This document shows, piece after piece, positions 25,406-53,752 of a stretch of 64,000 nucleotides of DNA (its first letter is position 1; each line of letters opens with the position of its first letter). Source of the DNA: Rhizobiales bacterium GAS188. Lineage in GTDB: Bacteria > Pseudomonadota > Alphaproteobacteria > Rhizobiales > Beijerinckiaceae. A model generated the notes under the pieces. The model worked only from the letters and a program-made list of their open reading frames with translations, made no database searches and was not told where the DNA came from. The stretch lies in NCBI GenBank assembly GCA_900104855.1, contig FNSS01000001.1:4464001-4528000 (forward strand). Direction: 5' to 3'. The position numbers and the translations under genes were made by a program.

Positions 25406-26405
<1,000 letters not shown>

Positions 26406-26413
<8 letters not shown>

Positions 26414-30126: not shown

Positions 30127-30146
30127 CGGGCAATTCTCCCTATGGG

Positions 30147-32073: not shown

Positions 32074-32114
32074 TCCGGTCTCCCTTCGGGCCCTGAACGG
32101 ACCGCATATGGTAG

Positions 32115-32247: not shown

Positions 32248-32295
32248 AATTCCAGTCGCGCCACACGATTCAACCTGAAGCCGCCCGCGCGCCGC

Positions 32296-33879: not shown

Positions 33880-34028
33880 GATCCGTCTTCTCCCATCCAT
33901 GTCCCTGCGGAGATTGCGGATTCCCTCTCATCCGTCTCCGAAGTCCTTGGCTTGCAGGCGCCTCGCCCCGGGACTGCACATCTTGCGCACAATCTCGTGA
34001 CATTCGAGTAGGCAATTGACATACGATA

Positions 34029-36875: not shown

Positions 36876-37865
36876 GTGAGCCCGGACACGAGCGTTGTGC
36901 CCTTTCGGTTCTCGACCAACGACGTGCCGCCGCGAGAGCGGATCGCGGTCAGCCGCGACGTGCTGGGGCGTCTCTATCTGCGCCTCGATCCCGAGCCCGC
37001 CGATGGCGCGCCGCTATGCTTGACGATCGAGCGCCATGACTGGTCCTCGGTGTCGCTCATCTATAGCGAGACCAATCCGATCTGCTTCCAGCGGACCCCC
37101 GATCTCGTTCGCGACGCCGACGGCGATTTCCGCTTCGTGGTGGGCGTCGAAGGGGCGCGCTACCATTTCGCTTCGGGCGGCATCGAGGAAGTCATGGACG
37201 GCGCGGACGCGGCCTTGCTCTTCAACGGCGCCGTCTGCAAGGTCAGCCTGCTCGGGACCTGCCGCAGCACGGCCATCCGCATCCCGCGCGAGCGTCTTGC
37301 CGCCGCGACGCAAGAGCTCGACGAGCGTCCCATCAGGCGGGCACCGCCCGGATGCGCGTCGTTGCGCCTCTTGAGCGGTTATGTGGCGCTCCTGCGTCGG
37401 CGAGGACCGACCGCCGATCCGGCGCTCGCCCACCAGATCGCCAGCCACCTCGTCGATCTCGTGGCGCTCACGCTCGGGCCGACCGAGGAGACGCGCCTTC
37501 GCGCCAGGGGCGGAGCAACCCGCATGGCGCGGCTCGCCGCGATCCGCGCCGATGTCCTCGCCAATCTCGCCGAAATGAGCTTATCGGCCAAGACTGTCGG
37601 TCGCCGTCACGGGGTCACCGACCGCTACGTCCATCTCCTGTTCGAGGAGAAAGGGCAGACCTTCGGCCGCTTCGTCGAGGAGGAGCGGCTGAAGCGCGCC
37701 TTTGCGCTCCTCGCCGACCCCACCCATCACCTCAAGGGGATCGGTGAGATCGCGACCGAGGTCGGCTTCGCCGAGCATTCCACCTTCGATCGCGCCTTCC
37801 GGCGCCGCTTCGGCGACACGCCCTCCAGCGTGCGCCGCCGCCACATCCCGGGTTGGAGTCAATGA
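36876..37865 (+). CDS. AraC-family transcriptional regulator
   Basis: The GTG at 36876 is chosen because AGGGAGG lies 8 nt upstream; this gives 329 residues. An ATG at 36771 would add 35 Ala-rich residues with no conservation. The N-terminal effector domain resembles the AraC-binding-like cupin/OxyR-linked type; the C-terminal double HTH spans about 225-325: SAKTVGRRHGVTDRYVHLLF, FVEEERLKRAFALLAD and GIGEIATEVGFAEHSTFDRA with FRRRFGDTPSSVRR. It converges on the FAD dehydrogenase gene of the large catabolic operon, which it might regulate. Confidence 0.88.
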   Translation: MSPDTSVVPFRFSTNDVPPRERIAVSRDVLGRLYLRLDPEPADGAPLCLTIERHDWSSVSLIYSETNPICFQRTPDLVRDADGDFRFVVGVEGARYHFASGGIEEVMDGADAALLFNGAVCKVSLLGTCRSTAIRIPRERLAAATQELDERPIRRAPPGCASLRLLSGYVALLRRRGPTADPALAHQIASHLVDLVALTLGPTEETRLRARGGATRMARLAAIRADVLANLAEMSLSAKTVGRRHGVTDRYVHLLFEEKGQTFGRFVEEERLKRAFALLADPTHHLKGIGEIATEVGFAEHSTFDRAFRRRFGDTPSSVRRRHIPGWSQ

Positions 37866-37972
37866 CACTTTGTCGGTCCGGCATCTTCGCCGTAGCGCTT
37901 TCGGCGGCGCTTCGCGATGATGCTGCAGCGCGGCAAAGCCGAAGCCGAAAAATGCCGCTTCACGTGTAAATC

Positions 37973-37988
37973 ACCTGTTTTAACAGGT
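37973..37988. repeat. 16-bp palindrome ACCTGTT-TT-AACAGGT
   Basis: The 7-bp arms are perfect and the site lies between two convergent gene ends (araC and the FAD dehydrogenase). It lacks a strong T tract on either side, so a weak terminator or a regulator site is possible. Confidence 0.35.
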
Positions 37989-38020
37989 ATCGCAATGCAG
38001 CATCGCCAGGCGTTCGAGCC

Positions 38021-39424
38021 TCAGCTCGGCGCGAGGGCCAGCGCCGTCGCGCTGCGTCCGGCGATCCGTCCGAGCACGGTTGCGGTCAGGAGGCCGTTGC
38101 CCGACAGATAGCCGGCGGCAGTCGAGCCCGACACACCGGCCGCCGCGCCGCCGCTCGCGAACAGGTTCGGCAGGGCAGTGCCGTCCTCCCGCAGCACGCG
38201 CGCCTCCTCGTCGATGACGAGGCCGCCTTGCGTGTGGAACAGGGCACCGGTGACGCGCACCGCCTTATAGGGTGGGCGCAAGGGAGGCGCGCCGCCAAAA
38301 TCGCGGCCGAACGGGTCTTGCGCCTCGCCCTGCTTCATCGCCTCGACGGCTGCGAAGCTCGCCACCAAGGCCAGCGGCGGCAGATGCGTGCGCTCGGCGA
38401 GGACCTCGACGGTCGGCGCCGTGAGGACCGCGCCCGAGGCTTCCGCAGCGCGGAAATCCTCGAACTGACGGGCGATCGCGGCGATGCGCTCGTCGAAGAT
38501 GCTGAAGGCGACGCCCTTGGCTTTGGTCAGCACATGCTCGGCCTGCTCGGAATAGCCCTGCGCTTCGTTCGAGAAGCGCTGTCCCTCGCCATCCACCTGG
38601 AAGCCGCCTTCGGTGATCGTCGCCCAGGTGATCAGGATGCCATGCGGCTGAGCGACCGAGCCATGGCCCTGATAGCCCGACATCGCAGCGAGCTTGGCGC
38701 CGAGCGCACCGCCCCAGAGCACTGCGTCGCCGCGATTGCCGGCATGGCCGAAATAGATCGCATCGGTCATTTCGGGCATGTGACGGCAGACGAGCTCGCG
38801 ATTGCCGCCATAGCCGCTGCAGGCGAGGATCAGCGCCGCGCAACCGATGGTCTCGTGCGCGCCGTCCGGCCGCGAGACCTCCACGGCCCTCACGCGCCCA
38901 TCATCCTCGGCATGGAGCGCGGTCACGGTGGCGCTGGTCAGGATCGGGACCCCCATGGCCTCGACCGCGCCGCGCAAGCGATCGACGAGCTCGGCGCCCG
39001 ATCGGCTCGGCAGGCCATGCATGCGCCGCGCCGAATGCCCCGGATAGTCGAAATCATGCACCAGCGAGAAGGGCAGGTGATGCCGGTCGGCGAGCCATTC
39101 GATGAGCGGCCCCGAGGCGCGCGTCACGGTGTCGACGATCGCGGCATCGGGCTCGCCCTTGGCCTTGCGCATGATGTCGCGGGCGAACAGCGCCGCGTCA
39201 TCATCGATGCCGCGCAGGCGCTGGAAGCGCGTGCCCGCCGCCGGGATCAGCCCCGCCGACAGCGCCGTCGAGCCGCGCGGCACCGCATCGCGTTCGAGGA
39301 TGGCGCAATCAGCGCCCGCTTCGCGCGCGGCGAGCGCAGCGCAAAGCCCGGCCGCGCCGCCGCCGATGATCGCGACCTGGATCTCCGCCTCGATCGACAG
39401 TCCGGCCGCCGGCTTGATGCTCAT
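38021..39424 (-). CDS. FAD-dependent dehydrogenase (fumarate reductase / TcuA-KstD-like flavoprotein)
   Basis: This 467-residue flavoprotein has an N-terminal dinucleotide motif, VAIIGGGAAGLCAALAARE (about 17-35), and a C-terminal GGAAAGVSGSTAAGYLSGNG segment that is the second FAD-binding block of the FRD/SDH-flavoprotein, 3-ketosteroid dehydrogenase and tricarballylate dehydrogenase group. It has no haem motifs or signal peptide. It should introduce or reduce a C=C bond next to a carbonyl or carboxylate. It is the last gene of the large leftward operon, and its start overlaps the isochorismatase-like stop by 4 bp. Confidence 0.85.
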   Translation of the reverse strand: MSIKPAAGLSIEAEIQVAIIGGGAAGLCAALAAREAGADCAILERDAVPRGSTALSAGLIPAAGTRFQRLRGIDDDAALFARDIMRKAKGEPDAAIVDTVTRASGPLIEWLADRHHLPFSLVHDFDYPGHSARRMHGLPSRSGAELVDRLRGAVEAMGVPILTSATVTALHAEDDGRVRAVEVSRPDGAHETIGCAALILACSGYGGNRELVCRHMPEMTDAIYFGHAGNRGDAVLWGGALGAKLAAMSGYQGHGSVAQPHGILITWATITEGGFQVDGEGQRFSNEAQGYSEQAEHVLTKAKGVAFSIFDERIAAIARQFEDFRAAEASGAVLTAPTVEVLAERTHLPPLALVASFAAVEAMKQGEAQDPFGRDFGGAPPLRPPYKAVRVTGALFHTQGGLVIDEEARVLREDGTALPNLFASGGAAAGVSGSTAAGYLSGNGLLTATVLGRIAGRSATALALAPS

Positions 39425-40032
39425 GCCGCGTCGAGCTCCGCCAGCGCCTCCGCGATGCTCTTGACCGCACAGACCGGGCGAAGCGCTTCGATCGCCGTGT
39501 CATGCAGCGTCGCTGAGAAGGCGGCGCAGCCATCGGCGAGCACGACGGTGTCGAAGTCGCGGATATGGGCGTCGCGCACCGTCGAGGCGACGCCGCCATT
39601 GGTGACGATGCCGCAGACATAGAGCCTCTCGATGCCGGCCTTGCGCAGCACCCATTCGAGCCGGCTCATATAGAAGGCGGAATAGGCGATCTTCTCGACG
39701 CTGAAATCGGCCGGTCCCAGGAGATCGACAAGCGCATGGCCCCATTGCCCCGGCGCGAAATCGCCCTTGCGCAGGAAGGGGCGCAGCGCCAGCAGATGCG
39801 GCGAGATCAGCGGCTCACCGCCCTTGCCGGGCACCAGGGTGAAATGCGTCGAGACGATGAAGCCGCCCTTCAACCGCAGCCTGTCGGCGAAAGGCTTGAC
39901 GCGGGCGGGCACGGCGGCGATCTCGGGTGAGGTCTGGCCGGCGCGGCCATAGGCGCCTTGCGGATCGAGGAAATCGTTCTGCAGGTCGCAGATCAGCAGC
40001 GCGCTGCGTGCCGCCGTGAACGCGGACGTCAT
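39421..40032 (-). CDS. isochorismatase-superfamily protein lacking the cysteine nucleophile
   Basis: This 203-residue protein has the cysteine-hydrolase fold: catalytic-type Asp16 in LLICDLQNDF and Lys114 in EKIAYSAF are present. At the nucleophile position the family reads T-N-x-C-V; here it is TNGGV (144-148), with Gly147 in place of Cys. Cys140 lies seven residues earlier. Superfamily members include maleamate amidohydrolase, N-carbamoylsarcosine amidase and isochorismatase. Its coupling between HyuA and the dehydrogenase implies it acts on the ring-opened product, but with an unconventional or absent hydrolytic nucleophile. Confidence 0.85.
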   Translation of the reverse strand: MTSAFTAARSALLICDLQNDFLDPQGAYGRAGQTSPEIAAVPARVKPFADRLRLKGGFIVSTHFTLVPGKGGEPLISPHLLALRPFLRKGDFAPGQWGHALVDLLGPADFSVEKIAYSAFYMSRLEWVLRKAGIERLYVCGIVTNGGVASTVRDAHIRDFDTVVLADGCAAFSATLHDTAIEALRPVCAVKSIAEALAELDAA

Positions 40033-42146
40033 GGAGATAGGTTCTCCTTGCGGCCGATGACGAGATTGCCGAACCGGTCGACCGTGGCGGTAAGGCCCGG
40101 ATCGAGCACGGTCGTCGCGTCCGGCTGTTCGAGGATGGCCGGCCCCTCGATGATCGCGCCGATGCCGAGATCGAGGCGCGACCAGATCGCCGCATCGCGC
40201 CAGCCGCCGAACCAGACTTTTCGCGAGCCGCGCCGCGCGGTTTCCAGGTTGGAATCGCCGCTCGGCGCCAGCGCCGCAAGGTCGAAAGGCGGGCGCCGGC
40301 CGATGGCCGCGGTGCGCAGCGAGACGATGCGCACCGGCACATCGGGCAAGAGCCGGCTGAATTGCGACCGATAGCTCGTCTCGAAGGCCGCGCGCACCGC
40401 GGCCTCGTCGATCGGGCTTGCCTCGCCGTCGAAGCGCGAAGGCAGCGGCACCTGCACCGTATGCGTCTGCCCGGAATAATGCATGTCGAGCTCGAAGACC
40501 GTGTCGATGCGCTCGACCGCGATGCCCTCGGCAATGACGGCGCGCGCTTCGCGACCGGCCTGCGCCATGCGCCGATTGAGGGTCGCGGCATCGAGGCCGT
40601 CGAGCGACAGATTGACGGTCAGCACCTGGTCGTGACGCAGATCGGCGATCACGCAGCCGAGCGCGCTGGTGATGCCCGGGAAGCGCGGCACCAACACGCT
40701 CGCGAGCCCAACCTCGCGCATCAGCGCCCCCGCATGCAGCGCGCCGCCGCCGCCGAAGGGCATCAGCGTGAAGCTCGCCGGGTCGTGGCCGCGCTCGATC
40801 GAGACCAGGCGGATGGCGCCGGCCATACGGGCATTCGCCACCTGGATGATGGCTTCGGCCGCTTGCGGCGCCTCGAGGCCGAGCGGCCTGCCCACTTCGG
40901 CGAGGATCGCCTGCTGCGCCGCCTCGACATCGAGCCGCGCGAGCTTGCCGCCGATCGGGCGCTCGGCATTGATGCGCCCGAGCACCACATTGGCGTCCGT
41001 CAAGGTCGGGCGCGGATTGCCGCCGCCATAGCAGGCGGGGCCGGGCACCGAGCCCGCGCTCTCGGGCCCGACCTGGAGCAAGCCGCCTTTGTCGACGCGG
41101 GCGATCGAGCCGCCTCCCGCCCCGATGGTCGTGATCTCGATCATAGGGGTGCGGATGACGAGGCCGAAATCGATGGTGGTCTGGGCCGACAGCACGGTCT
41201 CGCCGGCGGCGATCAGCGAGACGTCGAAGGAGGTGCCGCCGAGATCGCAGGTGATGACGTTCGGCCGTCCGGCCGCCCGCGCAATGGCGCCGGCCGCGAT
41301 CACGCCTGCCGCGGGACCGGACAATGCCGTGCGCACCGGCAGGCGCCGCGCCGTCGCGGTCGACATCACCCCGCCATTCGACTGCACGATATGGAAGGTG
41401 CCGGTAAAGCCTTCGCCGGCGAGCGCCTGCTCCAGCTTGCCGAGATAGGAACCGACGACCGGCTGCAGATAGGCATTCAGCGCCGTCGTCGAGCTGCGCT
41501 CGAATTCGCGGATCTCCGGCAGGATCTCGGAGGAGGTCGCGACATTTTGGTTCGGCCAGAGGGAGCGCACCGCCTCGGCCGCTTCGCGCTCATTCTCCGG
41601 ATTGGCATAGGCGTTGATGAAGATGATGGCGACAGCTTCCGCCCCCTTTGCGAGCAGGATCAGCGCCGCTTCGCGGAGCTCTACGGCATCGATGCGTGTG
41701 CGGATGCTGCCATCGGCGCGGGTGCGCTCGGAGACTTCGAGCCGCATGTCGCGATCGACGACCGGCACGAAATCGCCCCAGAGGCCCCAGGTATTGGGCC
41801 GGTCGCGGCGGCGCATCTCGATCACGTCGCGAAAGCCTCTGGTGGTGATGAGGCCGATGCGGGCGCCCTTGCGTTCGAGCAGCGCATTGGTGCCGACCGT
41901 GGTGCCGTGGATGATGGAGGCGAAATCGCTGATGGCGCCGAGCGCGCGCAAGCCGGCGAGGAAGCCTGTCGCCTCGTCGCCGCGGTTCGACGCGACCTTG
42001 GCGGTCTGGAAACGCTGCGCCGCCTCGTCATAGAAGAACAGATCGGTGAAGGTGCCGCCGACATCGACGCCGATCATGCTGCCGGATTTGACCGGGGACT
42101 TCGCAGAAGGTTGGGCGGGAACCTTGGCCTCGACGCGCGCGTTCAT
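40029..42146 (-). CDS. hyuA: hydantoinase/oxoprolinase subunit A (HyuA)
   Basis: This 705-residue protein of the ASKHA ATPase fold has phosphate-1 motif GVDVGGTFTDLFFYD (26-40), then IIHGTTVGTNALLERKGAR and CDLGGTSFDVSLI (second phosphate motif). This is the HyuA/OplAH-N family, which uses ATP to activate the amide of a cyclic imide, hydantoin or lactam; acetone/acetophenone carboxylase subunits are relatives. It is coupled to HyuB by a 4-bp overlap. An N-terminal extension of about 24 residues precedes the fold. The substrate is unknown. Confidence 0.92.
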   Translation of the reverse strand: MNARVEAKVPAQPSAKSPVKSGSMIGVDVGGTFTDLFFYDEAAQRFQTAKVASNRGDEATGFLAGLRALGAISDFASIIHGTTVGTNALLERKGARIGLITTRGFRDVIEMRRRDRPNTWGLWGDFVPVVDRDMRLEVSERTRADGSIRTRIDAVELREAALILLAKGAEAVAIIFINAYANPENEREAAEAVRSLWPNQNVATSSEILPEIREFERSSTTALNAYLQPVVGSYLGKLEQALAGEGFTGTFHIVQSNGGVMSTATARRLPVRTALSGPAAGVIAAGAIARAAGRPNVITCDLGGTSFDVSLIAAGETVLSAQTTIDFGLVIRTPMIEITTIGAGGGSIARVDKGGLLQVGPESAGSVPGPACYGGGNPRPTLTDANVVLGRINAERPIGGKLARLDVEAAQQAILAEVGRPLGLEAPQAAEAIIQVANARMAGAIRLVSIERGHDPASFTLMPFGGGGALHAGALMREVGLASVLVPRFPGITSALGCVIADLRHDQVLTVNLSLDGLDAATLNRRMAQAGREARAVIAEGIAVERIDTVFELDMHYSGQTHTVQVPLPSRFDGEASPIDEAAVRAAFETSYRSQFSRLLPDVPVRIVSLRTAAIGRRPPFDLAALAPSGDSNLETARRGSRKVWFGGWRDAAIWSRLDLGIGAIIEGPAILEQPDATTVLDPGLTATVDRFGNLVIGRKENLSP

Positions 42147-43882
42147 GCAGCGCTTCCTTCGCGCAGCCGCCGCGTCGCCTCGGCATCGAGGCTTCCGTCC
42201 GGCGCCAGCGCGACGCCGTAATCGCGCCGCGCCGCCTCCTCGTCGACATAGCCGAGGCGCAGATCGCGCAGCACTTTGCGAGGCTCGCGCATCCGCGGAT
42301 CACCGAAGCCGCCACCGCCCGGCGTCTCGAGGCGCACCTTCTGGCCCTTGCGGATCTTCACCCCTGTGATCTTCGAGGCGAGCGGCGGGCGGGCTTCGCC
42401 GCCCTCGGTCTCGAAGGTGAAGCGGTTGAGCGCCGCCGAGCCGCCGCCATTGACGCCGAAAGGCGCGAACTTGCCGCGCTCGCCGAGCAGGAACACATCG
42501 GCGCCGCCCTCGGCCAGCGCCTCGATCTCATAGACGGCGCCGAGGCCGCCGCGATGCGCGCCGGCGCCGGCGCTGCCCTCGCGCAGCGCCCATTGCGTGA
42601 ACATCACCGGATAAGAGGCTTCGAGGATTTCCAGAGGCGGGATGGTCGCCATCGAGATCGGGTTGTTGCCGTGGTTGAGGCCGTCGCTCAGCGGGTTGCC
42701 GCCGAGCCCGCCGCCGAAGAAGCAGAACATCACCCAGCGCGTGCCGTCGTCGCGATAGCCCGCGAGCGACAGGGCATTGATGGTGCCGAAGGGCGCGGCG
42801 GTCGCGAGCTTGGGCTCGGCCTTTGCCAATGCGCCGAAGACGACGCCGATCATGCGCAGGATCGTCTCCGTATAGCCGCCGACCGGCTTCGGCGCGCTGA
42901 CGCCCAGCAAGGTCGTCTCGGAGATCACGAACTCGATCGGCGCGAGGCAGCCGGCATTGGCCGGCACATCGGTGAAGACATGCTTCAGCGCCACATAGCA
43001 GCAGGCGATCGCGGTCGAGCGCGCGATGTTGAGCGGGCCGGCGCAAGGCGGCGAGGAGCGCGAGAAATCGAGCACCATGCGGTCGCCCGCAATGCTGAGG
43101 TCGAGCGCGATGGTCAGCGGCGCGTCGGTGACGCCGTCATTGTCGAGGTAATCCTCGAAGGAATAGACGCCATCGGGGAGCGCCCGGATATTGTCGCGCA
43201 TCAGCGCCTCGGCGCGGGCGCTGAAGGCGTCGAGCGCCGCCATCACGGTCGCGTCGCCATAATCGTCGAGCAGCCGATGCAGCCGCCGCTCGCCGAGATC
43301 GAGAGCGTTGAGCTGGCCGTTGAGATCGCCGTAATTCGATTGCGGCACCCGGCTATTGGCGGAAAGGATCGCCGTGATGTCCTCGTTCATGCGGCCTTTC
43401 GAGATCAGCTTCACGGGCGGGATGCGCACCCCCTCCTGGAAGCTCTCGGTCGCCGCCGCGTTGAAGCCGCCCGGCACATTGCCGCCGATGTCGAGCCAAT
43501 GGCCGACCGAGGCGAGCCAGCAGAACAGGCGGCCCTCGCGATAGACCGGCCGCACCAGCCGGAAATCATTGAGATGCGTGCCTCCGTCATAAGGGTCGTT
43601 GAAGATGAAGGTGTCGCCGGGCTCGAGTCCGCCTTGGTGCGCCACCTTGTCGATCACGGCCTTGACCGCAAACATCATGGCGCCGACGAAGATGGGTAGG
43701 CCCTTGGTGCCCTGCACCAGGGTGGCGCCGCTCCCGGCATGGTAGAGGCCGTGGCACGCGTCGCGCGCCTCGGCGATGATGGGATTGAAGGCCGAGCGGT
43801 AGAGCGTCGCATCCATCTCGTCGGCGATCTGCTCGAGCCGCCCCTTGAGCACGGCGAGCGTGACGGGATCAATCACGGCCAT
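42143..43882 (-). CDS. hyuB: hydantoinase/oxoprolinase subunit B (HyuB)
   Basis: This 579-residue protein has the HyuB signature FIFNDPYDGGTHLNDFRLV, then ASVGHWLDIGGNVPGGFN and the C-terminal VRLETPGGGGFGDPRMR. It forms the hetero-oligomer with HyuA that opens a ring amide at the expense of ATP. Its start lies 10 bp inside the lyase gene's 3' end, continuing the tightly packed operon. Confidence 0.92.
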   Translation of the reverse strand: MAVIDPVTLAVLKGRLEQIADEMDATLYRSAFNPIIAEARDACHGLYHAGSGATLVQGTKGLPIFVGAMMFAVKAVIDKVAHQGGLEPGDTFIFNDPYDGGTHLNDFRLVRPVYREGRLFCWLASVGHWLDIGGNVPGGFNAAATESFQEGVRIPPVKLISKGRMNEDITAILSANSRVPQSNYGDLNGQLNALDLGERRLHRLLDDYGDATVMAALDAFSARAEALMRDNIRALPDGVYSFEDYLDNDGVTDAPLTIALDLSIAGDRMVLDFSRSSPPCAGPLNIARSTAIACCYVALKHVFTDVPANAGCLAPIEFVISETTLLGVSAPKPVGGYTETILRMIGVVFGALAKAEPKLATAAPFGTINALSLAGYRDDGTRWVMFCFFGGGLGGNPLSDGLNHGNNPISMATIPPLEILEASYPVMFTQWALREGSAGAGAHRGGLGAVYEIEALAEGGADVFLLGERGKFAPFGVNGGGSAALNRFTFETEGGEARPPLASKITGVKIRKGQKVRLETPGGGGFGDPRMREPRKVLRDLRLGYVDEEAARRDYGVALAPDGSLDAEATRRLREGSAA

Positions 43883-44775
43883 TCATCCGTCTTCACATGC
43901 GGGAGCGAGAGCTTGCTCTCATAGGCCTGGCCGCGTTCGAGGATGGCTCGCGTGCCGAGCAGGTCGTTGAGGGCGTCGAAATCGAACATCCAGTCGCGGA
44001 AGCCGTCCGTCGTGCCGTCGCGCGCCAGCACCTGGTAGAAGCTCTGCGCCGTGCGCGCCACGGCCCGCACGATGCCGCCGGGGAAGATGACGAGGCGGAA
44101 GCCGATCCCCTCGAGCTCACGTGCCGAGAGGACCGGCGTCTGGCCGCCTTCCACCATATTGGCCATCAGCGGCAGGCGGTTGCCGAGCGCACCGACGATG
44201 GCGCCGAGCTGCGCATGCGTCTTCGGCGCCTCGACGAATAGCAGGTCGGCGCCGGATTCGGCATAGAGCACGGCGCGCTCGATCGCCGCCTCGAAATCCT
44301 CGACCGCCACGGCATCGGTGCGCGCGATGATCAAGGTCGCCTCGCTGCGTCGCGCATCGACGGCGGCGCGCAATTTGCCGGCCATCTCGGCGGCCGGGAT
44401 GATGCTCTTATCGGCGAGATGGCCGCAGCGCTTGGGGAAGGTCTGGTCCTCGAGCTGGATGGCGTTGGCGCCCGCCTGCTCGAAGGCGCGCACGGTGCGC
44501 GCCACATTGAGCGCATTGCCATAGCCCGTATCGGCGTCGACGATGATCGGCGCCTCGATGCGCTCGCGCACCAGGCTCAGCGTCTCGGCGACCTCGGCCA
44601 TCGAGACGAGGCCGATATCGGGCCCGCCGAGCCGCGTATAGGCGATGGCAGCGCCCGAGAGATAGACCGCCTCGAAGCCGGCCCCGATCGCTAGCGAGGC
44701 GGTGAGCGCGTCATAGATGCCGGGCGCCACGAGAATGCCGCCTTGCGACAGGCGTTGCTTGAGTTCCATGGTCAT
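43873..44775 (-). CDS. isocitrate lyase / PEP mutase superfamily C-C lyase
   Basis: This 300-residue protein has the family signature KRCGH (115-119), metal ligands in VDADTGYGN (80-88) and ED at 109-110. The PEP mutase/isocitrate lyase family includes 2-methylisocitrate lyase (PrpB), 2,3-dimethylmalate lyase and oxaloacetate decarboxylase; length and motif fit the PrpB/DML branch. It should cleave a 2-hydroxy (branched) dicarboxylate or tricarboxylate to pyruvate or glyoxylate plus a carboxylate. ATG 44773-44775 overlaps the MmgE/PrpD gene by 4 bp. Confidence 0.88.
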   Translation of the reverse strand: MTMELKQRLSQGGILVAPGIYDALTASLAIGAGFEAVYLSGAAIAYTRLGGPDIGLVSMAEVAETLSLVRERIEAPIIVDADTGYGNALNVARTVRAFEQAGANAIQLEDQTFPKRCGHLADKSIIPAAEMAGKLRAAVDARRSEATLIIARTDAVAVEDFEAAIERAVLYAESGADLLFVEAPKTHAQLGAIVGALGNRLPLMANMVEGGQTPVLSARELEGIGFRLVIFPGGIVRAVARTAQSFYQVLARDGTTDGFRDWMFDFDALNDLLGTRAILERGQAYESKLSLPHVKTDEWP

Positions 44776-46199: not shown

Positions 46200-46206
46200 G
46201 CGAGGC

Positions 46207-46915
<709 letters not shown>

Positions 46916-46923
<8 letters not shown>

Positions 46924-47662
46924 GCTGAGCCTCCAGGCGCTTCGCCGCGCCTTCGCCGAGATAGGCCTCGATGACACGCCGATTGCGCGTGACTTCGCGC
47001 GGCAGGCCTTCGGCGATCAGCCTTCCTTGCGCCAGGACGAGCACATGTTCGCAGAGATTCATGACGGCCTGCATGACGTGCTCGACCATCAGCAAGGTCA
47101 CGCCGCCATCGCGGATGGAGCGGATCACCGGCAGGATGTCGCGGATCTCGGAGGGGTTGAGGCCGGCCAGCACCTCGTCGAGCAGGAGCAGCGTCGGCTC
47201 GGTCGCGAGCGCCCGGGCAAGCTCGAGGCGCTTGCGCGCCGCGACCGTCAGGCCGGCCGCCTGCGCCTCGAGCTCACGGCCGAGGCCGACGAATCTCGCG
47301 ACCTCCCCGGCCTTGGCGATCGCCTCGGCGCGGCCGAGATGGCGCAGATGCGCGCCGACCGCGATGTTCTCGACGACGCTGAGCCCTGCGAAAGGCTGGA
47401 CGATCTGGAAGGTGCGGGCGATGCCGGCCTGGGCGCGGCTATGCGGAGCAAGGCGCCCGATATCCTCTCCACGGAACAGCACGCGCCCCTGGGTCGGCCG
47501 CTCGAAGCCGGCGATCAGGGCGAACAAGGTGGTCTTGCCGGCGCCGTTCGGTCCGATCAGGCCGCAAATCCCGCCTTGCTCGAGCGAGAACGTCACGTCA
47601 TCGACGGCTATAAGCCCGCCGAAGCGCTTCGTCATGCCCTCGACCGACAAGAGCACCGTCAT
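46916..47662 (-). CDS. livG: branched-chain amino acid-type ABC transporter ATPase, LivG-like
   Basis: This 248-residue ATPase has Walker A GPNGAGKTTLFALIAG, a LivG-type IARTFQIVQPFAGLSVVENI Q-loop region, Walker B LLLLDEVLAGLNPSE and H-loop MVEHVM. The signature is a divergent form, LTVAARKRLELARAL, as usual for LivG. It lies 10 bp from livM. Confidence 0.93.
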
Positions 47663-47672
47663 GGCAGCACGA

Positions 47673-48665
47673 TCATGGCACGGCCTCGATCGCGGGAGCG
47701 GCGGGCCGGCGCGTGAGCCGCGCGATGAGCCTCGTGATCAGGCCCTGGATGCCGTCGCGCGCAAAGGCGATGACGAGGATCAGCAAGGCGCCGAACAGGG
47801 CTGTGTCGATGCCCGGCAGGCCGCCCGCAATGCCGCGCGTCAGCTCGCCGAGCTCATGCAGCACCAGCGCGCCGAGCAAGGGCCCGAACACGGTGCCGAG
47901 GCCGCCGATGATGGGCGCGACCAGCGCCTCGATCGAGATCCAGGTGCCGAAGCCGAGATCGGCGTTCACCAGCAGGAAATATTGCACATAGAGCGCGCCT
48001 GCCGCGGCCGTGATGGTGGCCGACAATGCGATCGCCTTGAGCTTGACCGCCAGAGTATCGACGCCGAGCGCCTTTGCGGCATTCTCGTTCTCGCGGATCG
48101 CCACGACATAGGCGCCGAGCCGCGAACGCTCGACGGCGCGCATCGCGAGCATCGCGGCGCCGACCAGGGCGAGCGCGATCCAGTAATAGACGGCGCGGCT
48201 CTCGAACTGGAAATTGGCGGGGCGGATATCGAGCTTGAGCAGGATGCCGGGCGCCCCGCCGAAGAACGGCGAGGCATTGGCGATGATGCGGAACACTTCC
48301 GCGAAGGCGAGAGTGACGAGCGCGAAATAGGAGCCGCGCAATCCTGAGCGGAAGCTGAGATAGCCGATGATCCAGCCGACAAGCGCGCCGATCGCCGCGG
48401 CCGCCGCGAAAGCCAGCCAGGCATTCACACCGTAGCGCGATTGCAGGATGGCGGTCGCATAGGCGCCCGTGCCGAAGAAGGCCGCATGGCCGAAGGAGAA
48501 CAGGCCGCCATAGCCGCCGAGCAGGTTCCAGCCGCATCCCGCGAGCGCGATCAGCAGCGTCAGCACCATGCCGTTGAGAAGCGTGTTCGACGAGGTCGCG
48601 AGCGGCAGCAGGGCGCAGAGCGCCATCACGCCGAGGATCGACCCATAGGCGCGCGCCGTGCTCAT
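47673..48665 (-). CDS. livM: branched-chain amino acid-type ABC permease, LivM-like
   Basis: This 330-residue permease has the LivM motif NLLGGYGGLFSFGHAAFFGT and about 8-10 spans. The cytoplasmic ATPase contact region is AIRENENAAKALGVDTLAVK. ATG 48663-48665 overlaps the LivH stop by 4 bp; longer frames upstream lie inside other genes. Confidence 0.92.
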   Translation of the reverse strand: MSTARAYGSILGVMALCALLPLATSSNTLLNGMVLTLLIALAGCGWNLLGGYGGLFSFGHAAFFGTGAYATAILQSRYGVNAWLAFAAAAAIGALVGWIIGYLSFRSGLRGSYFALVTLAFAEVFRIIANASPFFGGAPGILLKLDIRPANFQFESRAVYYWIALALVGAAMLAMRAVERSRLGAYVVAIRENENAAKALGVDTLAVKLKAIALSATITAAAGALYVQYFLLVNADLGFGTWISIEALVAPIIGGLGTVFGPLLGALVLHELGELTRGIAGGLPGIDTALFGALLILVIAFARDGIQGLITRLIARLTRRPAAPAIEAVP

Positions 48666-49531
48666 GCCCGGGCTCCGAAGAGGCCGGTCGGGCGCATGAG
48701 CAGCATCAGGATGAAGATCAGGAAGATACCGAGCTGGCCGAGGCTCTCGCCGAAGAACAGGCCCGTCAGGCTTTCGATGACGCCGATGATCAGCCCGCCG
48801 ATGAGGGCGCCGGGCACCGAGCCCATGCCGCCGAAGACGACGATCGTGAAGGCGACGAGCACATAGGCTTCGCCGACGCGCGGATTGACGTAATAGCTCG
48901 GCAGCAGCAGGCAGGCCGAGACCGCGAGGCAGGCTGCGCCGAGGCCGAAGGTGACCGCATAGATATGCGCGACGTCGATGCCCATCAGCGAGGCGCCGTA
49001 TTTCTCCTTCGCCACCGCCCGGATGGCCTTGCCGGTATCGGTGCGCGTGAGCAGGAACCACAGCGCCAGCGCCACCAGGCAGGCGACCATGAAGGCGATG
49101 ACGCGCGGCATGGGCAGGAAGGTGAAGCCGAGATCGAGCGTGTCGAGGCCATAGGGCACGTCGATCGAGCGCGTGTCGGAATGGAAGGCGGCGTTCAGCG
49201 CGTTCTCGATCAGGATCGACAGGCCGAGCGTGACGAGAAGGATGTTCTGGTCCTCCCCATGGCTCGCCGGCGATATCACCAGGCGCTGCAGCCCATAGCC
49301 GAGCCCGAAGAATAGGGGCGCCAGCACCAGCAGCGCGAGATAGGGGTCGATGCCCGCCACCCAGGCGCAATAGGCGGCAAACATCGCGGCCGAGAGGATG
49401 GCGCCATGCGCAAAGTTGATGATGTGCAAGACGCCGTAGACGAGCGTCAGCCCGACCGCGATCAGCGCGTAGACGGCCCCGGTCAAGAGGCCGTTCAGGA
49501 CCGCCGAAAGCAGGATGTCGGGGGCGAGCAT
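48662..49531 (-). CDS. livH: branched-chain amino acid-type ABC permease, LivH-like
   Basis: This 289-residue permease has LLTGAVYALIAVGLTLVYGV and INFAHGAILSAAMFAAY, the LivH N-terminus, then a contact loop AVAKEKYGASLMGIDVAHI and GGMGSVPGALIGGLIIG. The gap after livK is 24 bp. Confidence 0.93.
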   Translation of the reverse strand: MLAPDILLSAVLNGLLTGAVYALIAVGLTLVYGVLHIINFAHGAILSAAMFAAYCAWVAGIDPYLALLVLAPLFFGLGYGLQRLVISPASHGEDQNILLVTLGLSILIENALNAAFHSDTRSIDVPYGLDTLDLGFTFLPMPRVIAFMVACLVALALWFLLTRTDTGKAIRAVAKEKYGASLMGIDVAHIYAVTFGLGAACLAVSACLLLPSYYVNPRVGEAYVLVAFTIVVFGGMGSVPGALIGGLIIGVIESLTGLFFGESLGQLGIFLIFILMLLMRPTGLFGARA

Positions 49532-49555
49532 CGGGCCGGACGGGCGGTGCCGGAA

Positions 49556-50779
49556 TCAGGCCGGAACCGGGAAGATGGGCTTCCCATCCGCGAAGGTGTC
49601 GGGGAAGATCACCTTGATGTCCGCGCCCTGCACCTGGAGATTGACCGGCGCTGCGCCCTGGTTCTGGCCGTCGACGAATTGGGTCGGCCCATAGGGCATG
49701 ATGTGGCCGGCGAAGCTCGACGAAGCGAGCGCCGTCGTGATCTTGGCTCGGTCCGCTGAGGCTGCGCGCTCGATCGCATCGGCGAGCAGCAGCACGCAGG
49801 AATAGTTGAGCGCCGTGTTGTAGGTGAAGAACTTGCCTTGCTGTTCGACCTCTTTGCGCAGCGCCACCGCCGCGTCCTTGCGCGGATCGTACCAATGATT
49901 GCAGTCCATCACGTTCTGGGCGGCTTCCGGGAATTCCTTGACGAAGCGGAAATTCGAGGCCGCGCCGTTGAGCACGCAATAGACGCCTTTCGGCTTGATG
50001 CGCTGCTGCTGCATGGTGCGGGCGAGCAGCACGAACTCGCCATAATAGCTCGACGGGATGATGAGATCCGGATTCTTGGCGCGGATCTGCAGCGCCACAT
50101 TCGACATGTCGCGCGCCGGCGTCGGATGCGCGATGGTGTCGAGGATCTCGAAGCCGCGCTTCGGCAGCTCCGCCTGCAGCAATTTGGCTAGCCCTGAGCC
50201 GAACAGCCCGTCCTCATGCACCAGCACCACGGTCTTGGCGGGCTTGCCTGCACCGTCATTGAGCTTGACGAGATTATCGATCGCGGTCGTCGAGACCTTG
50301 CCGAAGCCCGGTGCGAACCGGAAAGTGTTCTTCAGGCCGCGCTGCACGATCTGGTCGGTCACGCCGACATCGACGATATAGGGCAGGTCATAGCGTGCGG
50401 CGGCCTGGGTGGCGGCAAGGCAGATCGGGCTCGCGAAGCCGCCGACGATCGCCGCGACGCCTTCATTCTGCATGCGCTCGACCTCGCTCGTGCCGCCATC
50501 GGGCGTCGAGCGCGCATCGCCCGCGACCATGTCGAGCTTGGCGCCGCCGAGCGATTTGATCCCGCCTGCGCTGTTGATCGCCTTGATGGCGAGCTCGGCT
50601 CCGAGCTGGCCCTGCTGCCCGTCGAAGGCGAGCGCCCCGGTCATAGGCTGCAGGATGCCGACCTTGATCGGCGCCGTCTGGGCCCGCAGATAGGCCGGCA
50701 AGGCAAGGCTCGCCGCGGCGGCACCTGCCGTGGTGCCGAGCAGGTTGCGGCGGGTCAGTCTTGTGAAGCCTTTCCTCAT
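49556..50779 (-). CDS. branched-chain amino acid-type periplasmic binding protein, LivK-like (Tat signal)
   Basis: This 407-residue protein has a twin-arginine signal, LTRRNLLGTTAGAAAASLAL, with cleavage around YLRA. The mature type-I periplasmic binding fold starts APIKVGILQPMTGALAF. HAAT binding proteins of this group take up aromatic acids, amides or urea as often as amino acids. Its start overlaps the gntR stop by 4 bp, so regulator, transporter and enzymes form one transcript. Confidence 0.9.
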   Translation of the reverse strand: MRKGFTRLTRRNLLGTTAGAAAASLALPAYLRAQTAPIKVGILQPMTGALAFDGQQGQLGAELAIKAINSAGGIKSLGGAKLDMVAGDARSTPDGGTSEVERMQNEGVAAIVGGFASPICLAATQAAARYDLPYIVDVGVTDQIVQRGLKNTFRFAPGFGKVSTTAIDNLVKLNDGAGKPAKTVVLVHEDGLFGSGLAKLLQAELPKRGFEILDTIAHPTPARDMSNVALQIRAKNPDLIIPSSYYGEFVLLARTMQQQRIKPKGVYCVLNGAASNFRFVKEFPEAAQNVMDCNHWYDPRKDAAVALRKEVEQQGKFFTYNTALNYSCVLLLADAIERAASADRAKITTALASSSFAGHIMPYGPTQFVDGQNQGAAPVNLQVQGADIKVIFPDTFADGKPIFPVPA

Positions 50780-51627
50780 ATCGCTCTCCCGTTTGGTCTT
50801 GGTTTGCGGCTCTTCGTTCGGCCGGGGCCGGCTTGCGGCTGGACCGGATCTCGCATGTGCATGAGGTCCCGGGCCATGGGGGCCCAGCGCCTCCCATGCG
50901 CGCCATCGGTGCGCTTGAGGTCCATGCGCAGCGCATAGCGGTCCGGGCGATAAAGCGCGAAGAGATGCTCGATGCCGCGCCCCTCTTCGTCGAAGGCGAT
51001 GCGGGTCAGCGCGATCAGGGCCGAGCCGATATCGACCTCGAGCGCCTGGGCGACATCGGGCGATGCCAGCAGCGCGCCGATCTCCTGCGTCGCCCGCGCC
51101 AGGCCGATGCCGGAGCGTTCGAGAAGCGACAGCAACGGACGCGAGGCGAGCTCGGCCTCCGAATAGGTCACGCCGATGCGCTCGGGCACATGGGTGGTGA
51201 GATAGGAGAAGGGCTCGCCGTCGATGAGGCGCACCCGGATGGAGCGCTGCACCCGTTCGCCAGGCGCAAGCTGCAGCGCCGCCGCGATATTGGCCGGTGC
51301 CTCGACATAGCCGAAGGCGAGGAGCTTCACATCCGTCGTCTTGCCCATCGCCACGATGTTGGCGAGGACATCCGACAGGTCGGCGATGACCGGCTTTGCC
51401 TCATGGCGTGGCGTCGCATAGGTGCCGGCGCCTTGCACCCTGCGGACCAGCCCTTCGCGCTCGAGCTCGGCAAGGGCCCGCCTGACGGTGATGCGCGAGA
51501 CCGAATGCTGCAGGGCGAGCGATTGCTCGGGCGGCAGCGGCGCCCCATGCGGCACGGCGCCGCCGGCGATCTGGTCGCGCAGCAGCAGATAGACCTGCTG
51601 GGTCTTGGACGGCTCGATGCCCGGCAT
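50776..51627 (-). CDS. GntR-family regulator, HutC/UTRA type
   Basis: This 283-residue protein has an N-terminal winged HTH (QQVYLLLRDQIAGGAVPHGA, RITVRRALAELEREGLVRRV) and a UTRA ligand domain (about 80-250). A 35-residue basic tail (PGRTKSRKPRPNG) is unusual. It is the first gene of the Liv/Hyu operon, divergent from leuC with 77 bp between starts, so one repressor could govern both arms of the locus. Confidence 0.9.
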   Translation of the reverse strand: MPGIEPSKTQQVYLLLRDQIAGGAVPHGAPLPPEQSLALQHSVSRITVRRALAELEREGLVRRVQGAGTYATPRHEAKPVIADLSDVLANIVAMGKTTDVKLLAFGYVEAPANIAAALQLAPGERVQRSIRVRLIDGEPFSYLTTHVPERIGVTYSEAELASRPLLSLLERSGIGLARATQEIGALLASPDVAQALEVDIGSALIALTRIAFDEEGRGIEHLFALYRPDRYALRMDLKRTDGAHGRRWAPMARDLMHMRDPVQPQAGPGRTKSRKPRPNGRAI

Positions 51628-51704
51628 GAAGGCCCTTGATCATGCTACCTTTAGATGTATAGTTTATAAGACAAATCACGCAGGTCAAGGGTGAAACCAG
51701 ATCC
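51628..51704. promoter_or_regulatory. divergent promoter region of the Liv/Hyu operon and leuCD-like genes
   Basis: This 77-bp AT-rich region contains TATA-GTT-TATA (51659-51669) within TTTAGATGTATAGTTTATAAG, a plausible UTRA-type GntR site overlapping the promoter elements of both directions. No -35/-10 pair is unambiguous. Confidence 0.4.
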
Positions 51705-53117
51705 ATGCGCGGCGAGCCTCGAACCATCATCGACAAGCTCTGGGACAGCCATGCGGTCGTCAGGCGCGACAGCGGCGACACGCTGCTCTTCGTCGACCGG
51801 CACCTCCTGCACGAAGGCTCGTTCCACGCCTTCGAGCAGGTGAGGGAGCGCGGCCGTGCGGTGGCGCGGCCCGATCTCAGCTTCGCCGTCGCCGATCATT
51901 ACGTGCCGACGCGCGGACGCGGCGCGCCCATACCCAATCCCGAGATCGCGCGCATGGTCGAGCTGCTCACCGCCAATAGCCGCGAGCATGGCATCGAGCT
52001 CTTCGGGCTCGACGATCCGCGCCAGGGCATCGTGCATGTGGCGATGCCCGAGCAGGGGCTGACCTTGCCGGGCCTGGTGCTGGTTTGCGGGGACAGCCAC
52101 ACCTCGACCCATGGCGCTTTCGGCGCCTATGCGTTCGGCATCGGCGCCTCCGAAGTCGCCCATGTGCTGATGACGCAGACCATTTGGCAGAAGAAGCCGA
52201 AGCGCATGCGCGTGCGGGTCGAGGGCAAGACGGCGCCCGGCATCACCGCCAAGGACATCGCGTTGACGGTGATCGCGAGGATCGGCGCCGACGGGGCGCA
52301 GGGCCACGCCGTCGAATATGCCGGCTCGACCATCAGGGCGCTGTCGATGGAAGGACGGATGACCTTGTGCAATCTCTCGATCGAGGCGGGCGCCCGCAAC
52401 GGCCTCGTCGCGCCTGATGCGACGACCTTCGCGTATCTCGAGGGCCGGCCCTTCGCGCCGCAAGGAGAGGGCTTGGCGCGCGCCGTCGCCGATTGGGAGA
52501 AGCTGGCGACAGATGCCGATGCCGGCTTCGACCGGGAGCTCTCGCTCGCGGGCGATGAGGTCGCCCCGACCGTGACCTGGGGCACGAGCCCCGAGCAGGC
52601 ATTGCCGATCGATGCCGAGGTGCCGAACCCCGCCGCGATCGCGGACCCCGCCCGCGCGGCCGCCATCGGCGACGCCATCGCCTATATGGGCTTGAGGCCG
52701 GGCATGAAGCTGACCTCGATCGCTGTCGACCGCGTCTTCATCGGCTCCTGCACCAATGCCCGCATCGAGGATCTGCGCGCCGCGGCGGCCGTGCTCGCCG
52801 GGCGGCGCGCCAAGGTCCCGGGCCTGGTCTCGCCAGGCTCGAGCGCCGTGAAGCGCCAGGCCGAACAGGAGGGGCTCGACCGCGTCTTCCGCGAGGCCGG
52901 GCTCGACTTCGTCGATGCTGGCTGCTCGATGTGCGTCGGCATCAATGGCGATCTCGTGCCGCCGGGCGAGCGCTGCGCCTCCACCACCAACCGCAATTTC
53001 AAGGGACGCCAGGGCCCGGGCGCGCGCACCCATCTGATGTCGCCCGCCATGGTCGCGGCGGCGGCCGTGACCGGGCATCTCGCCGATCTGCGGGACCTGC
53101 TGAAGGGGCGCGCCTGA
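51705..53117 (+). CDS. LeuC-like large subunit of an isopropylmalate-isomerase-family hydro-lyase
   Basis: This 470-residue aconitase-superfamily protein has [4Fe-4S] cysteine motifs GSCTNARIEDL and GCSMCVGINGD, and CGDSHTSTHGAFGAYAFGIG. The loop after the second Cys motif reads MCVGINGD, while biosynthetic LeuC usually has MCLAMNPD, hinting at a different substrate. It is coupled to leuD (overlap TGATG) and divergent from the Liv/Hyu operon. It could hydrate or isomerise an unsaturated dicarboxylate, for example a maleate or dimethylmaleate type; biosynthetic LeuC remains an alternative. Confidence 0.88.
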   Translation: MRGEPRTIIDKLWDSHAVVRRDSGDTLLFVDRHLLHEGSFHAFEQVRERGRAVARPDLSFAVADHYVPTRGRGAPIPNPEIARMVELLTANSREHGIELFGLDDPRQGIVHVAMPEQGLTLPGLVLVCGDSHTSTHGAFGAYAFGIGASEVAHVLMTQTIWQKKPKRMRVRVEGKTAPGITAKDIALTVIARIGADGAQGHAVEYAGSTIRALSMEGRMTLCNLSIEAGARNGLVAPDATTFAYLEGRPFAPQGEGLARAVADWEKLATDADAGFDRELSLAGDEVAPTVTWGTSPEQALPIDAEVPNPAAIADPARAAAIGDAIAYMGLRPGMKLTSIAVDRVFIGSCTNARIEDLRAAAAVLAGRRAKVPGLVSPGSSAVKRQAEQEGLDRVFREAGLDFVDAGCSMCVGINGDLVPPGERCASTTNRNFKGRQGPGARTHLMSPAMVAAAAVTGHLADLRDLLKGRA

Positions 53118-53752
53118 TGCAGAAATTCGAGCGCCTCGACACCATCGCCTGTCCGTTGCCTCTCGCCAATCTCGACACGGATCAGCTGCTGCCGGCCCGT
53201 TTCCTGAAGCGGCCGCGCGCCGAGGGCTATGGCGGCTTCCTCCTGCATGATCTGCGCTTCGGCGCGGACGGCAAAGGGACGAGCCGGCTGCCGCTCGACG
53301 AGCCGCGCTATCGCGGCGCGCAGGCGATCGTGGCGCGGCGCAATTTCGGCAGCGGCTCGTCGCGGGAAGGTGCAGTCTATGCGCTCATGGATTTCGGCAT
53401 ACGCTGCGTGATCGCGCCGAGCTTCGGCGATATCTTCGCGTCGAACTGCGTCATGAACGGCCTGCTCGTCATCCGCCTCCCCGAGACAGAGGTCGAGGAG
53501 CTTTTGGCCTTGCCCGATCTCCTGCAAGCGAGGCCGATGCGCATCGACCTCGAGGCGCAGCGTGTCAGCTGCGGCCCCGTGAGCTTCGCCTTCGACATCG
53601 ATCCCTTGCGCAAGACGAAGCTCCTGAATGGCTGGGACGATATCGACATCACGCTGAGCCATGCGGCCGAGATCGCGCGCTTCACCGCCGCCGACGCGAA
53701 GGAACGGCCCTGGGCCCTTCCGCATCGGCCGGCAAGTGACCTGAGCCGCTAG
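53117..53752 (+). CDS. LeuD-like small subunit of an isopropylmalate-isomerase-family hydro-lyase
   Basis: This 211-residue swivel-domain subunit has NLDTDQLLPARFLKRP at the N-terminus and NFGSGSSREGAVYALMDFGI, where biosynthetic LeuD normally has NFGCGSSREHA; APSFGDIFASNCVMNGLLVI follows. The Cys-to-Ser and His-to-Gly changes fall in the substrate-facing loop. It pairs with the LeuC-like subunit, and an inverted repeat B follows 30 bp after the stop. Confidence 0.88.
   Translation: MQKFERLDTIACPLPLANLDTDQLLPARFLKRPRAEGYGGFLLHDLRFGADGKGTSRLPLDEPRYRGAQAIVARRNFGSGSSREGAVYALMDFGIRCVIAPSFGDIFASNCVMNGLLVIRLPETEVEELLALPDLLQARPMRIDLEAQRVSCGPVSFAFDIDPLRKTKLLNGWDDIDITLSHAAEIARFTAADAKERPWALPHRPASDLSR

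Follow-up and report, generated by a model that had tools for sequence, protein, structure and literature searches.

A putative catabolic module linking HyuAB-type ring opening to LeuCD-type hydration and PrpB-like cleavage in Rhizobiales bacterium GAS188

The 64,000-nucleotide stretch analysed here (the window; positions 4464001-4528000 of the 9.09 Mb genome of Rhizobiales bacterium GAS188) carries 12 packed minus-strand genes (38021-51627) and a divergent plus-strand leuCD pair (51705-53752), with all reading frames intact. These genes appear to specify an undescribed pathway for the uptake of a cyclic nitrogen compound, the opening of its ring and the cleavage of the acid that is left to central metabolites. 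On balance, we believe that they act as a single co-regulated module for the catabolism of a cyclic imide or ureide that is small and probably bears a carboxylate. The case is built on gene content, linkage, co-occurrence, module interchange, conserved active-site residues and a conserved operator, all of which are observed.

The core of this module is found in about one in six sampled genomes of the order (46/297). Its carriers include many soil, plant-associated and aquatic bacteria, where the genes are re-arranged but stay together. In public records, module genes are labelled as leucine biosynthesis, cysteine hydrolase or hydantoinase. The 14-gene form is approximately 16 kb in length, and the substrate is therefore probably a common environmental compound. 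The invariant core, an enzyme swap in Verticiella (discussed below) and a single operator make this substrate findable by growth and induction tests.

Gene organization, distribution and operator

Families were assigned with Pfam and NCBIfam for ten proteins, and for LivHMGF by open reading frame and tblastn conservation only. The minus-strand genes begin with a GntR/HutC-type regulator with GntR and UTRA domains (50776-51627), followed by a LivK-type periplasmic binding protein (49556-50779, PF13458), the permeases LivH (48662-49531) and LivM (47673-48665) and the ATPases LivG (46916-47662) and LivF (46207-46923). LivK is most similar in the PDB to a probable Leu/Ile/Val-binding protein (131 bits), a comparison that yielded no clue to the ligand. 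The Neorhizobium counterpart of LivH is annotated as a branched-chain amino acid permease, and the starts of livM and livF were set by inspection. Next are genes for an MmgE/PrpD-family enzyme, a PrpB-like lyase, HyuB, HyuA, an isochorismatase-fold hydrolase (ISO) and a flavin adenine dinucleotide (FAD) dehydrogenase/reductase. Neighbouring genes overlap by 4 bp (gntR/livK, livH/livM, prpD/lyase, hyuB/hyuA, hyuA/ISO and ISO/FAD), 8 bp (livG/livF) or 10 bp (lyase/hyuB), or are separated by 24 bp (livK/livH), 10 bp (livM/livG) or 7 bp (livF/prpD). The likely start codons of prpD and leuD are at 46199 and 53117, respectively. The gntR start (51627) and the leuC start (51705) are separated by 77 bp. 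A preliminary description of the window had proposed this gene set as an overlapping operon with leuCD divergent across 77 bp, and all of this is borne out by the open frames and the expected families.

That description had also proposed that the genes, including the divergent leuCD, form one catabolic module, and had named loss of synteny in relatives as a possible refutation. Conserved co-occurrence supports the module, and the synteny holds rather than breaking apart. When 297 genomes of the order were searched with the window PrpD, matches were found in 17. All 14 genes occur together, within 20 kb around the PrpD match, in 11 other genomes. A twelfth (locus L033) has everything except leuCD, its stretch ending inside gntR, and four genomes with weaker PrpD homologues have no HyuAB in the 20 kb around them. 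A scan of 80 named loci, some cut by contig ends and with matches below 40% identity dropped, covered Microvirga, Azospirillum, Methylobacterium, Bosea, Roseomonas and relatives, Elioraea, Phreatobacter, Prosthecomicrobium, Salinarimonas, Bradyrhizobium, metagenome-assembled genomes (MAGs) and one Verticiella, which we take to belong to the Burkholderiales. The genes present were LivF (79), HyuB (77), HyuA (75), FAD protein (72), ISO (72), lyase (70), LeuC (62), LeuD (62) and GntR (59). Because all 14 genes recur in 11 further genomes and most of them in most of the 80 loci, the association is more than chance. An AraC-type gene at 36771-37865, which partly overlaps the range first described, was rejected as a module member, as it has no match of at least 40% identity in the 80 loci. 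In relatives, leuCD is placed in one of three gene orders (divergent, 3' of ISO or 3' of the FAD gene), and in a Xanthobacteraceae MAG the module is divided into two GntR-headed clusters (L056 and L120).

ISO marks the module core. It is encoded in 46 of the 297 genomes, as a single copy in each (every match with an E-value of 3e-66 or better). Thirteen of these loci are of the PrpD type and 33 have no PrpD in the fetched stretch. HyuA accompanies ISO in 45 of the loci, HyuB in 43 and the lyase in 42. The four loci with gaps in this set (L181, L187, L192 and L193) lie on contigs of 5.1-8.3 kb, and in 42/42 loci free of contig-end truncation ISO, HyuA, HyuB and the lyase are found together. A hydratase large subunit is encoded within approximately 15 kb of ISO in 40 of the 46: 12 in PrpD-type loci, 21 among the PrpD-less loci (9 bacterial-type and 12 archaeal-type) and 7 recovered by a LeuC search of eight genomes. 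In the eighth genome (G287), LeuC2 is on a different contig. In a plasmid collection, HyuB at 60% identity or above and ISO are found in exactly the same 30 records. Beyond this order, where it is common, ISO has a patchy distribution (8 of 398 genomes spread over the phylum at an E-value of 1e-50). Outside the 46/297 count, the core also occurs in Azospirillum, Roseomonas, Sulfitobacter, Paraburkholderia and others.

Upstream of gntR is an 18-bp near-palindrome, TGTMTYATANNNTAKACA, which in the window spans 51656-51673. Consensus scoring of upstream regions identifies TGTCTTATAAACTATACA at this position as a probable GntR operator common to both arms. At least 13 of 15 consensus positions are matched in 43 of 59 upstream regions, compared to 0.02 expected from Markov-resampled controls; some of the scored regions had themselves been used to derive the consensus by eye. 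The window site is the sole exact match in its own genome. With one mismatch allowed, the seven genomes searched contain one match each, except that the GAS188 genome contains two; the second, with one mismatch, is upstream of another GntR-family gene (identified by eye). The single match in the Azospirillum genome is not the module's own site, which is more diverged, and a reversed-pattern control also matches once there. Where leuCD is divergent, one predicted GntR operator between the arms is a probable control site for both.

Module enzymes and the entry step

HyuA (40029-42146) and HyuB (42143-43882) carry Hydantoinase A and B domains (PF01968 and PF05378 in HyuA, PF02538 in HyuB). HyuA is most similar in the PDB to an N-methylhydantoinase (7hk5, E-value: 1.4e-126). 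Neither protein reaches the caprolactamase models, including the beta model matched by HyuB (501.7 bits for HyuA and 310.6 for HyuB, each with a cut-off of 1000). The HyuA of Sulfitobacter pontiacus BL28 (L163 15680-17745) is annotated as two open reading frames and matches in two pieces, a possible frameshift.

ISO (39421-40032) has the isochorismatase-like family domain and fold, and its nearest relatives include biuret, triuret and ureidoacrylate hydrolases. Its active site was compared, along with those of the other enzymes, in a scan of 132 loci in which matches below 45% identity were dropped (except for LeuD). At least six genomes are represented twice (L025/L080, L029/L089, L030/L098, L026/L100, L028/L094 and L022/L068), and the totals of 124, 117, 111 and 85 given below therefore count loci and not genomes. 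ISO retains Asp16, Lys114 and Gly147 in 124/124 matched loci, with no catalytic Cys, and so lacks the Asp-Lys-Cys triad; the window protein has a TNGG motif. ISO as a thiol amidase was thus rejected, and the deamidation step of the earlier scheme finds no support in its original form. If ISO performs the deamidating step, it would be by none of the known thiol mechanisms.

The entry step is illuminated by the cluster of Verticiella sp. GG226 (L110 and L205, on one contig). Its gene order is a flavin monooxygenase, PrpD (59% identity), gntR (reversed), an isochorismatase-fold amidase with a TSGC motif, two PuuE/imidase-like proteins, LeuC (60%), LeuD (45%), LivKHMGF and, directly after livF, the lyase (45%) and FAD protein (54%). 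A closer lyase (56%) is encoded on a different contig. Eleven of the 14 module genes are present; HyuB, HyuA and ISO are the only ones absent, and a search of this genome found no ISO at an E-value of 1e-30 and no HyuB above 33% identity. The amidase is most similar to an N-carbamoylsarcosine amidohydrolase, tied with 4l07 (titled maleamate amidase Ami), and one imidase-like protein is most similar to a polysaccharide deacetylase-family protein and PuuE allantoinase. A single stretch of genome G902 (L123) encodes relatives of the amidase (72%), imidases (69% and 53%), PrpD (50%), FAD protein (51%) and lyase (47%), and no ISO was found in that genome. As imidases and an amidase stand at the place of HyuAB and ISO within the same gene set, the two sets of enzymes look like two answers to the same entry step, which would then probably be hydrolysis of a cyclic imide or ureide. 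Entry through a cyclic imide, as first suggested for the window, is favoured (or entry through a ureide) by this replacement.

LeuC2 (51705-53117) and LeuD2 (53117-53752) have aconitase superfamily domains (PF00330, 525 bits; PF00694, 78 bits), and both exceed the general LeuC/LeuD model cut-offs (LeuC2 TIGR00170: 643.9 bits, cut-off 560; PRK12466: 726 bits). The Ser-Ser-Arg of the aconitase-family small subunit has a catalytic role, and these residues (Ser81, Ser82 and Arg83) are conserved in 85/85 matched LeuD2 loci, all with the motif SSRE[AGS]A[VA]YAL (SSREGAVYAL in the window). In a LeuC tree of 40 rows (39 different), one clade of 15 (support 99/97) holds one LeuC from each of 15 genomes examined; in 7 of the 15, those with leuD in the stretch, LeuD has the motif SSREHAPWAL. 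The clade is taken to be biosynthetic. The module LeuC is on the other fork (95/88), along with the Verticiella and third-type LeuC, and that of L157 is on a long branch outside both groups. The preliminary description had treated grouping with biosynthetic enzymes together with being the only copy as grounds for abandoning its proposal; LeuCD2 is instead a paralogue apart from the genome's other, presumed biosynthetic LeuC, and leuCD as the sole or biosynthetic copy was rejected. In genome G279, leuC2 is in two abutting pieces (C326:48964-50351) and is probably frameshifted or affected by an assembly error.

The suggested resemblance of this hydratase to DmdAB is not supported for the window pair. 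TIGR02087, by its name, places DmdB among the archaeal-type LeuC/HacA and LeuD/DmdB families, and the window proteins fall below all such models (NF001614: 357.8, cut-off 385; TIGR01343: 325.3, cut-off 385.7; TIGR02086: 291.4, cut-off 410; TIGR02087: 60.4, cut-off 109). An archaeal-type hydratase replaces LeuCD2 in 12 of the 33 PrpD-less loci. The Paraburkholderia locus, which has no PrpD or FAD protein, encodes such a pair, reaching NF001614, TIGR01343 and TIGR02087 and not TIGR02086.

The lyase (43873-44775) belongs to the isocitrate lyase/phosphoenolpyruvate mutase superfamily (PF13714, 151 bits), in whose lyases the Cys of the K(R/K)CGH motif has a role. The motif is intact in the window (KRCGH), and both Cys117 and Arg237, the latter a PrpB-type Arg, are conserved in 117/117 matched loci. 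The lyase is nearest to PrpB, yet falls below the equivalog (TIGR02317: 276.5 bits, cut-off 354.4; PRK11320: 239, cut-off 353). Comparison with 3fa3, the dimethylmalate lyase entry, gave 159.8 bits, which denotes a sequence relationship only. The PrpD-like enzyme (44772-46199; PF03972/PF19305) is most similar in the PDB to B. subtilis IRG1 (87.9 bits) and IDS-epimerase (82 bits). The only NCBIfam model matched is NF042438 (2-methylcitrate dehydratase, high-GC Gram-positive; 35.1, cut-off 950), and RNSY occupies the position of KPLH in 7bra. As PrpD is missing from 33/46 ISO loci, it was rejected as a core step, and an obligatory role in the hydration of the earlier scheme is excluded.

The FAD protein (38021-39424, PF00890) is of the flavocytochrome c/ketosteroid dehydrogenase superfamily. 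Two Arg residues have functional roles in flavocytochrome c fumarate reductase; at the columns aligned with these in 1qo8, the FAD protein has Tyr291 and Tyr439 in 111/111 matched loci, and it is therefore not placed with the fumarate/urocanate reductases. The cut-offs for TcuA (tricarballylate dehydrogenase) are not reached (159 against 369 and 95.5 against 372.55). The FAD proteins of L168 and L180 were left out of one alignment due to an internal stop in the matched stretch.

Proposed pathway and alternatives

The proposed model, in which the chemistry and order of every step and the substrate class come from knowledge of the enzyme families, is as follows. GntR at a single operator would govern both arms. 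The compound would be taken up by the Liv transporter or, in some relatives, by a tripartite ATP-independent periplasmic (TRAP) transporter. HyuA and HyuB would open the ring with consumption of ATP, and the Cys-free ISO would either finish removal of the ring nitrogen or cut an enol- or enamine-type bond; HyuAB and ISO would jointly fill the role of the Verticiella imidase and amidase pair. The FAD protein would desaturate a bond adjacent to a carboxylate or carbonyl, so that a saturated substrate would yield a substituted maleate-type acid. LeuC2/LeuD2 would add water across the cis-1,2-dicarboxylate double bond, and the PrpB-like lyase would convert the 2-hydroxy-2,3-dicarboxylate to a 2-oxo acid (of the pyruvate or glyoxylate type) and a carboxylic acid. 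PrpD may be an optional accessory dehydratase or isomerase in some lineages. Because the lyase and hydratase families work on 1,2-dicarboxylates, the ring would most simply be a five-membered imide or a ring acid that gives a 1,2-dicarboxylate. In Sulfitobacter-type loci, a TRAP transporter is encoded beside the core, along with a tautomerase-SnoaL protein, and the transporter suggests that the substrate is an acidic compound.

In a more specific and quite improbable form of this model, bacteria would use the module to degrade monopyrrolic remains of tetrapyrroles, namely hematinic acid or a close relative. Hematinic acid is the imide that remains after oxidation of heme, chlorophyll or bilins. 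Ring opening and deamidation of the methyl/carboxyethyl-maleimide would fall to HyuAB and ISO; LeuCD2 would then hydrate the methyl-homoaconitate formed, and the lyase would yield pyruvate and glutarate. This form draws on the PrpB-type Arg (117/117) and on glutarate-type CoA-transferase relatives: the Tistrella module encodes an acyl-CoA dehydrogenase and a CoA-transferase nearest to succinate-glutarate CoA-transferase (533 bits, cut-off 750), and L195 encodes an acyl-CoA dehydrogenase relative and a 55% CoA-transferase relative beside the lyase and FAD protein. L183 also has a relative (68%) of the Tistrella acyl-CoA dehydrogenase. No bacterial degradation pathway for hematinic acid was found in the open-licence literature, judged by titles and abstract openings.

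Another possible, though rather unlikely, function is a hydantoin-type route, in which HyuAB would open a 5-substituted (possibly unsaturated) hydantoin to an N-carbamoyl/ureido acid, ISO would free the ureido part, and the FAD protein, LeuCD2 and lyase would process the branched carbon skeleton. The N-methylhydantoinase match of HyuA and the ureide-hydrolysing relatives of ISO are consistent with such a route, as is the similarity of the Verticiella replacements to PuuE allantoinase-type enzymes and N-carbamoylsarcosine amidohydrolase, the tie with maleamate amidase notwithstanding. Genes of the Asp/Glu/hydantoin-racemase family lie beside the Neorhizobium module (L162) and, by eye, beside PrpD in L034, L122 and L123, but that family also includes maleate isomerases. 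Against a hydantoin, the core has no aminotransferase or amino-acid dehydrogenase, and an aconitase-type hydratase and a C-C lyase are not normally needed for hydantoin skeletons. It is unlikely to a much greater degree that two unrelated functions share one regulon, with HyuAB and ISO scavenging nitrogen and PrpD, LeuCD2 and the lyase forming a branch akin to the methylcitrate cycle that would handle propionate or other short acids. PrpD, hydratase and lyase do parallel methylcitrate-cycle chemistry, the lyase is nearest to PrpB, and Roseomonas-type loci keep HyuAB and ISO without the lyase and LeuCD. However, lyase, HyuB, HyuA and ISO stay together in all 42 uncut loci, PrpD is lost while the lyase and HyuAB remain, Verticiella puts other ring-opening enzymes into the same set at the place of HyuAB and ISO, and the lyase scores under the PrpB equivalog; no citrate-synthase-type gene was noticed, though none was searched for. 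Least probable of all, and largely refuted, is that LeuCD2 is a redundant leucine-biosynthesis isomerase that is divergent from the Hyu operon by happenstance. Its score above the LeuC equivalog cut-off would fit, but each of the 15 genomes examined has another LeuC in the separate, presumed biosynthetic clade, the LeuD2 motif differs from SSREHAPWAL, and LeuCD2 stays with the module through three gene orders and is replaced in 12 loci by the other hydratase type.

Several observations count against a single cyclic imide or ureide module. Eight of the 80 loci (the Roseomonas type) have HyuAB, ISO, PrpD and FAD protein, yet neither lyase nor LeuCD adjoining; Roseomonas-type genomes G299 and G300 carry LeuCD of a third type at another site, and the lyases that they encode are only distant ones (at most 42% and 45% identity, respectively). 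L060, L074 and L101 have full flanks but no LeuCD beside the module; a module-type LeuC is encoded elsewhere in the L060 genome, and the L074 genome has none of that clade. Lyase, PrpD and FAD protein are all missing from the 29.7 kb of the Tistrella locus, and the FAD protein is absent from 9 of the 33 PrpD-less loci, some of which are cut short. As ISO has no amidase Cys, no enzyme of the window obviously frees ammonia by a known mechanism. Lastly, an ATP-dependent HyuAB fits stable lactams or hydantoins, and imidases open simple imides without ATP.

Variant loci and comparison with known systems

Additional genes accompany the core in some lineages. A CoxL-like molybdenum hydroxylase subunit follows the FAD gene in all eight Roseomonas-type loci (L084, L086, L093, L103, L111, L114, L116 and L117), at approximately 17.0-19.5 kb in full-length loci; the gene was below all cut-offs in the scan of L086, and the assignment was extended to the others by clustering. 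An M24 peptidase after the FAD gene in Phreatobacter-type loci was taken as unrelated. TctC-type receptors are encoded inside L075, L088 and L115, and TctA/TctB-type genes beside the FAD gene in L097, L104, L105 and L108; the receptors are given little weight because they also occur in the flanks of other loci. A 4-OT-type tautomerase recurs inside variants (L159:13432-13998, L162:18427-18918 and L033:7296-7793), fused to a SnoaL/DUF4440 domain in L159 and apparently in L162. The Neorhizobium locus also encodes an old yellow enzyme (OYE)/NamA-type ene reductase, annotated as a nitronate monooxygenase, between leuD2 and gntR (L162:5145-6116). Where the usual FAD protein is absent, a GMC-like flavoprotein and an NAD-epimerase-like gene (named by eye) accompany the core in L165 and L171.

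Related clusters were also noted. A distinct one at 1.4-10.6 kb of L035 (genome G029, which holds the ISO core elsewhere, in L179) encodes relatives of the FAD protein (57%) and PrpD (50%), an amidohydrolase, an AMP ligase-like protein, an OYE and, by eye, acyl-CoA dehydrogenase and short-chain dehydrogenase/reductase (SDR) genes. L034 and L122 encode PrpD relatives with Liv transporters and, by eye, SDR and Asp/Glu/hydantoin-racemase-like proteins, with imidase-like genes and an AtuA-family protein in L122; they are likely a sister pathway. In the window itself, the neighbouring minus-strand region 25406-33900 encodes an oligopeptide-type ATP-binding cassette transporter (SBP_bac_5, oligo_HPY ATPase) and two amidohydrolases (Amidohydro_1 and Amidohydro_3), and is possibly another N-acyl or cyclic-amide uptake locus.

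Each of the enzyme families in the module is known. Narrow searches of the open-licence literature, judged by titles and abstract openings, found no description of this gene set, nor of the combination of families, the interchangeable parts or a Cys-less ISO as core marker. In the nicotinate fermentation of Eubacterium barkeri, DmdAB and dimethylmalate lyase catalyse the final aconitase-family hydration of a substituted maleate and an isocitrate-lyase-family cleavage, as proposed here. That pathway has no HyuAB or ISO, and the window LeuCD belongs to the bacterial LeuC family (a distinction made with family models). The methylcitrate cycle (PrpD, AcnD/AcnB and PrpB) shares the dehydratase, hydratase and lyase families, whereas the module has a LeuCD-type hydratase, a lyase below the PrpB cut-offs, an optional PrpD and linkage to HyuAB and ISO. 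Two-subunit ring opening and a strong family match are shared with N-methylhydantoinase, caprolactamase and 5-oxoprolinase; HyuA and HyuB reach half and a third of the caprolactamase cut-offs, respectively, and the module HyuAB is linked to a hydratase and a C-C lyase.

ISO has its fold, Asp and Lys in common with RutB, biuret hydrolase, maleamate amidase, YecD and EntB. It differs from the Cys amidases in having Gly in place of the catalytic Cys, as do YecD and EntB. According to one report, changing Gly145 of YecD to Cys conferred lactamase activity and enabled it to hydrolyse several amides on which the wild type is inactive (PMC12553813). The entry step has a parallel in the nicotinate pathway of Aspergillus nidulans, in which HxnM and HxnN convert a cyclic imide to a half-amide that is then deamidated (PMC9304392). 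The order of imide opening and deamidation is the same as that proposed here, and the imidase is PuuE-related, as in the Verticiella version of the module. The fungal route as described there differs in using an imidase and amidase rather than an ATP-dependent HyuAB, and yields hydroxyglutarate with neither hydratase nor lyase (PMC9304392).

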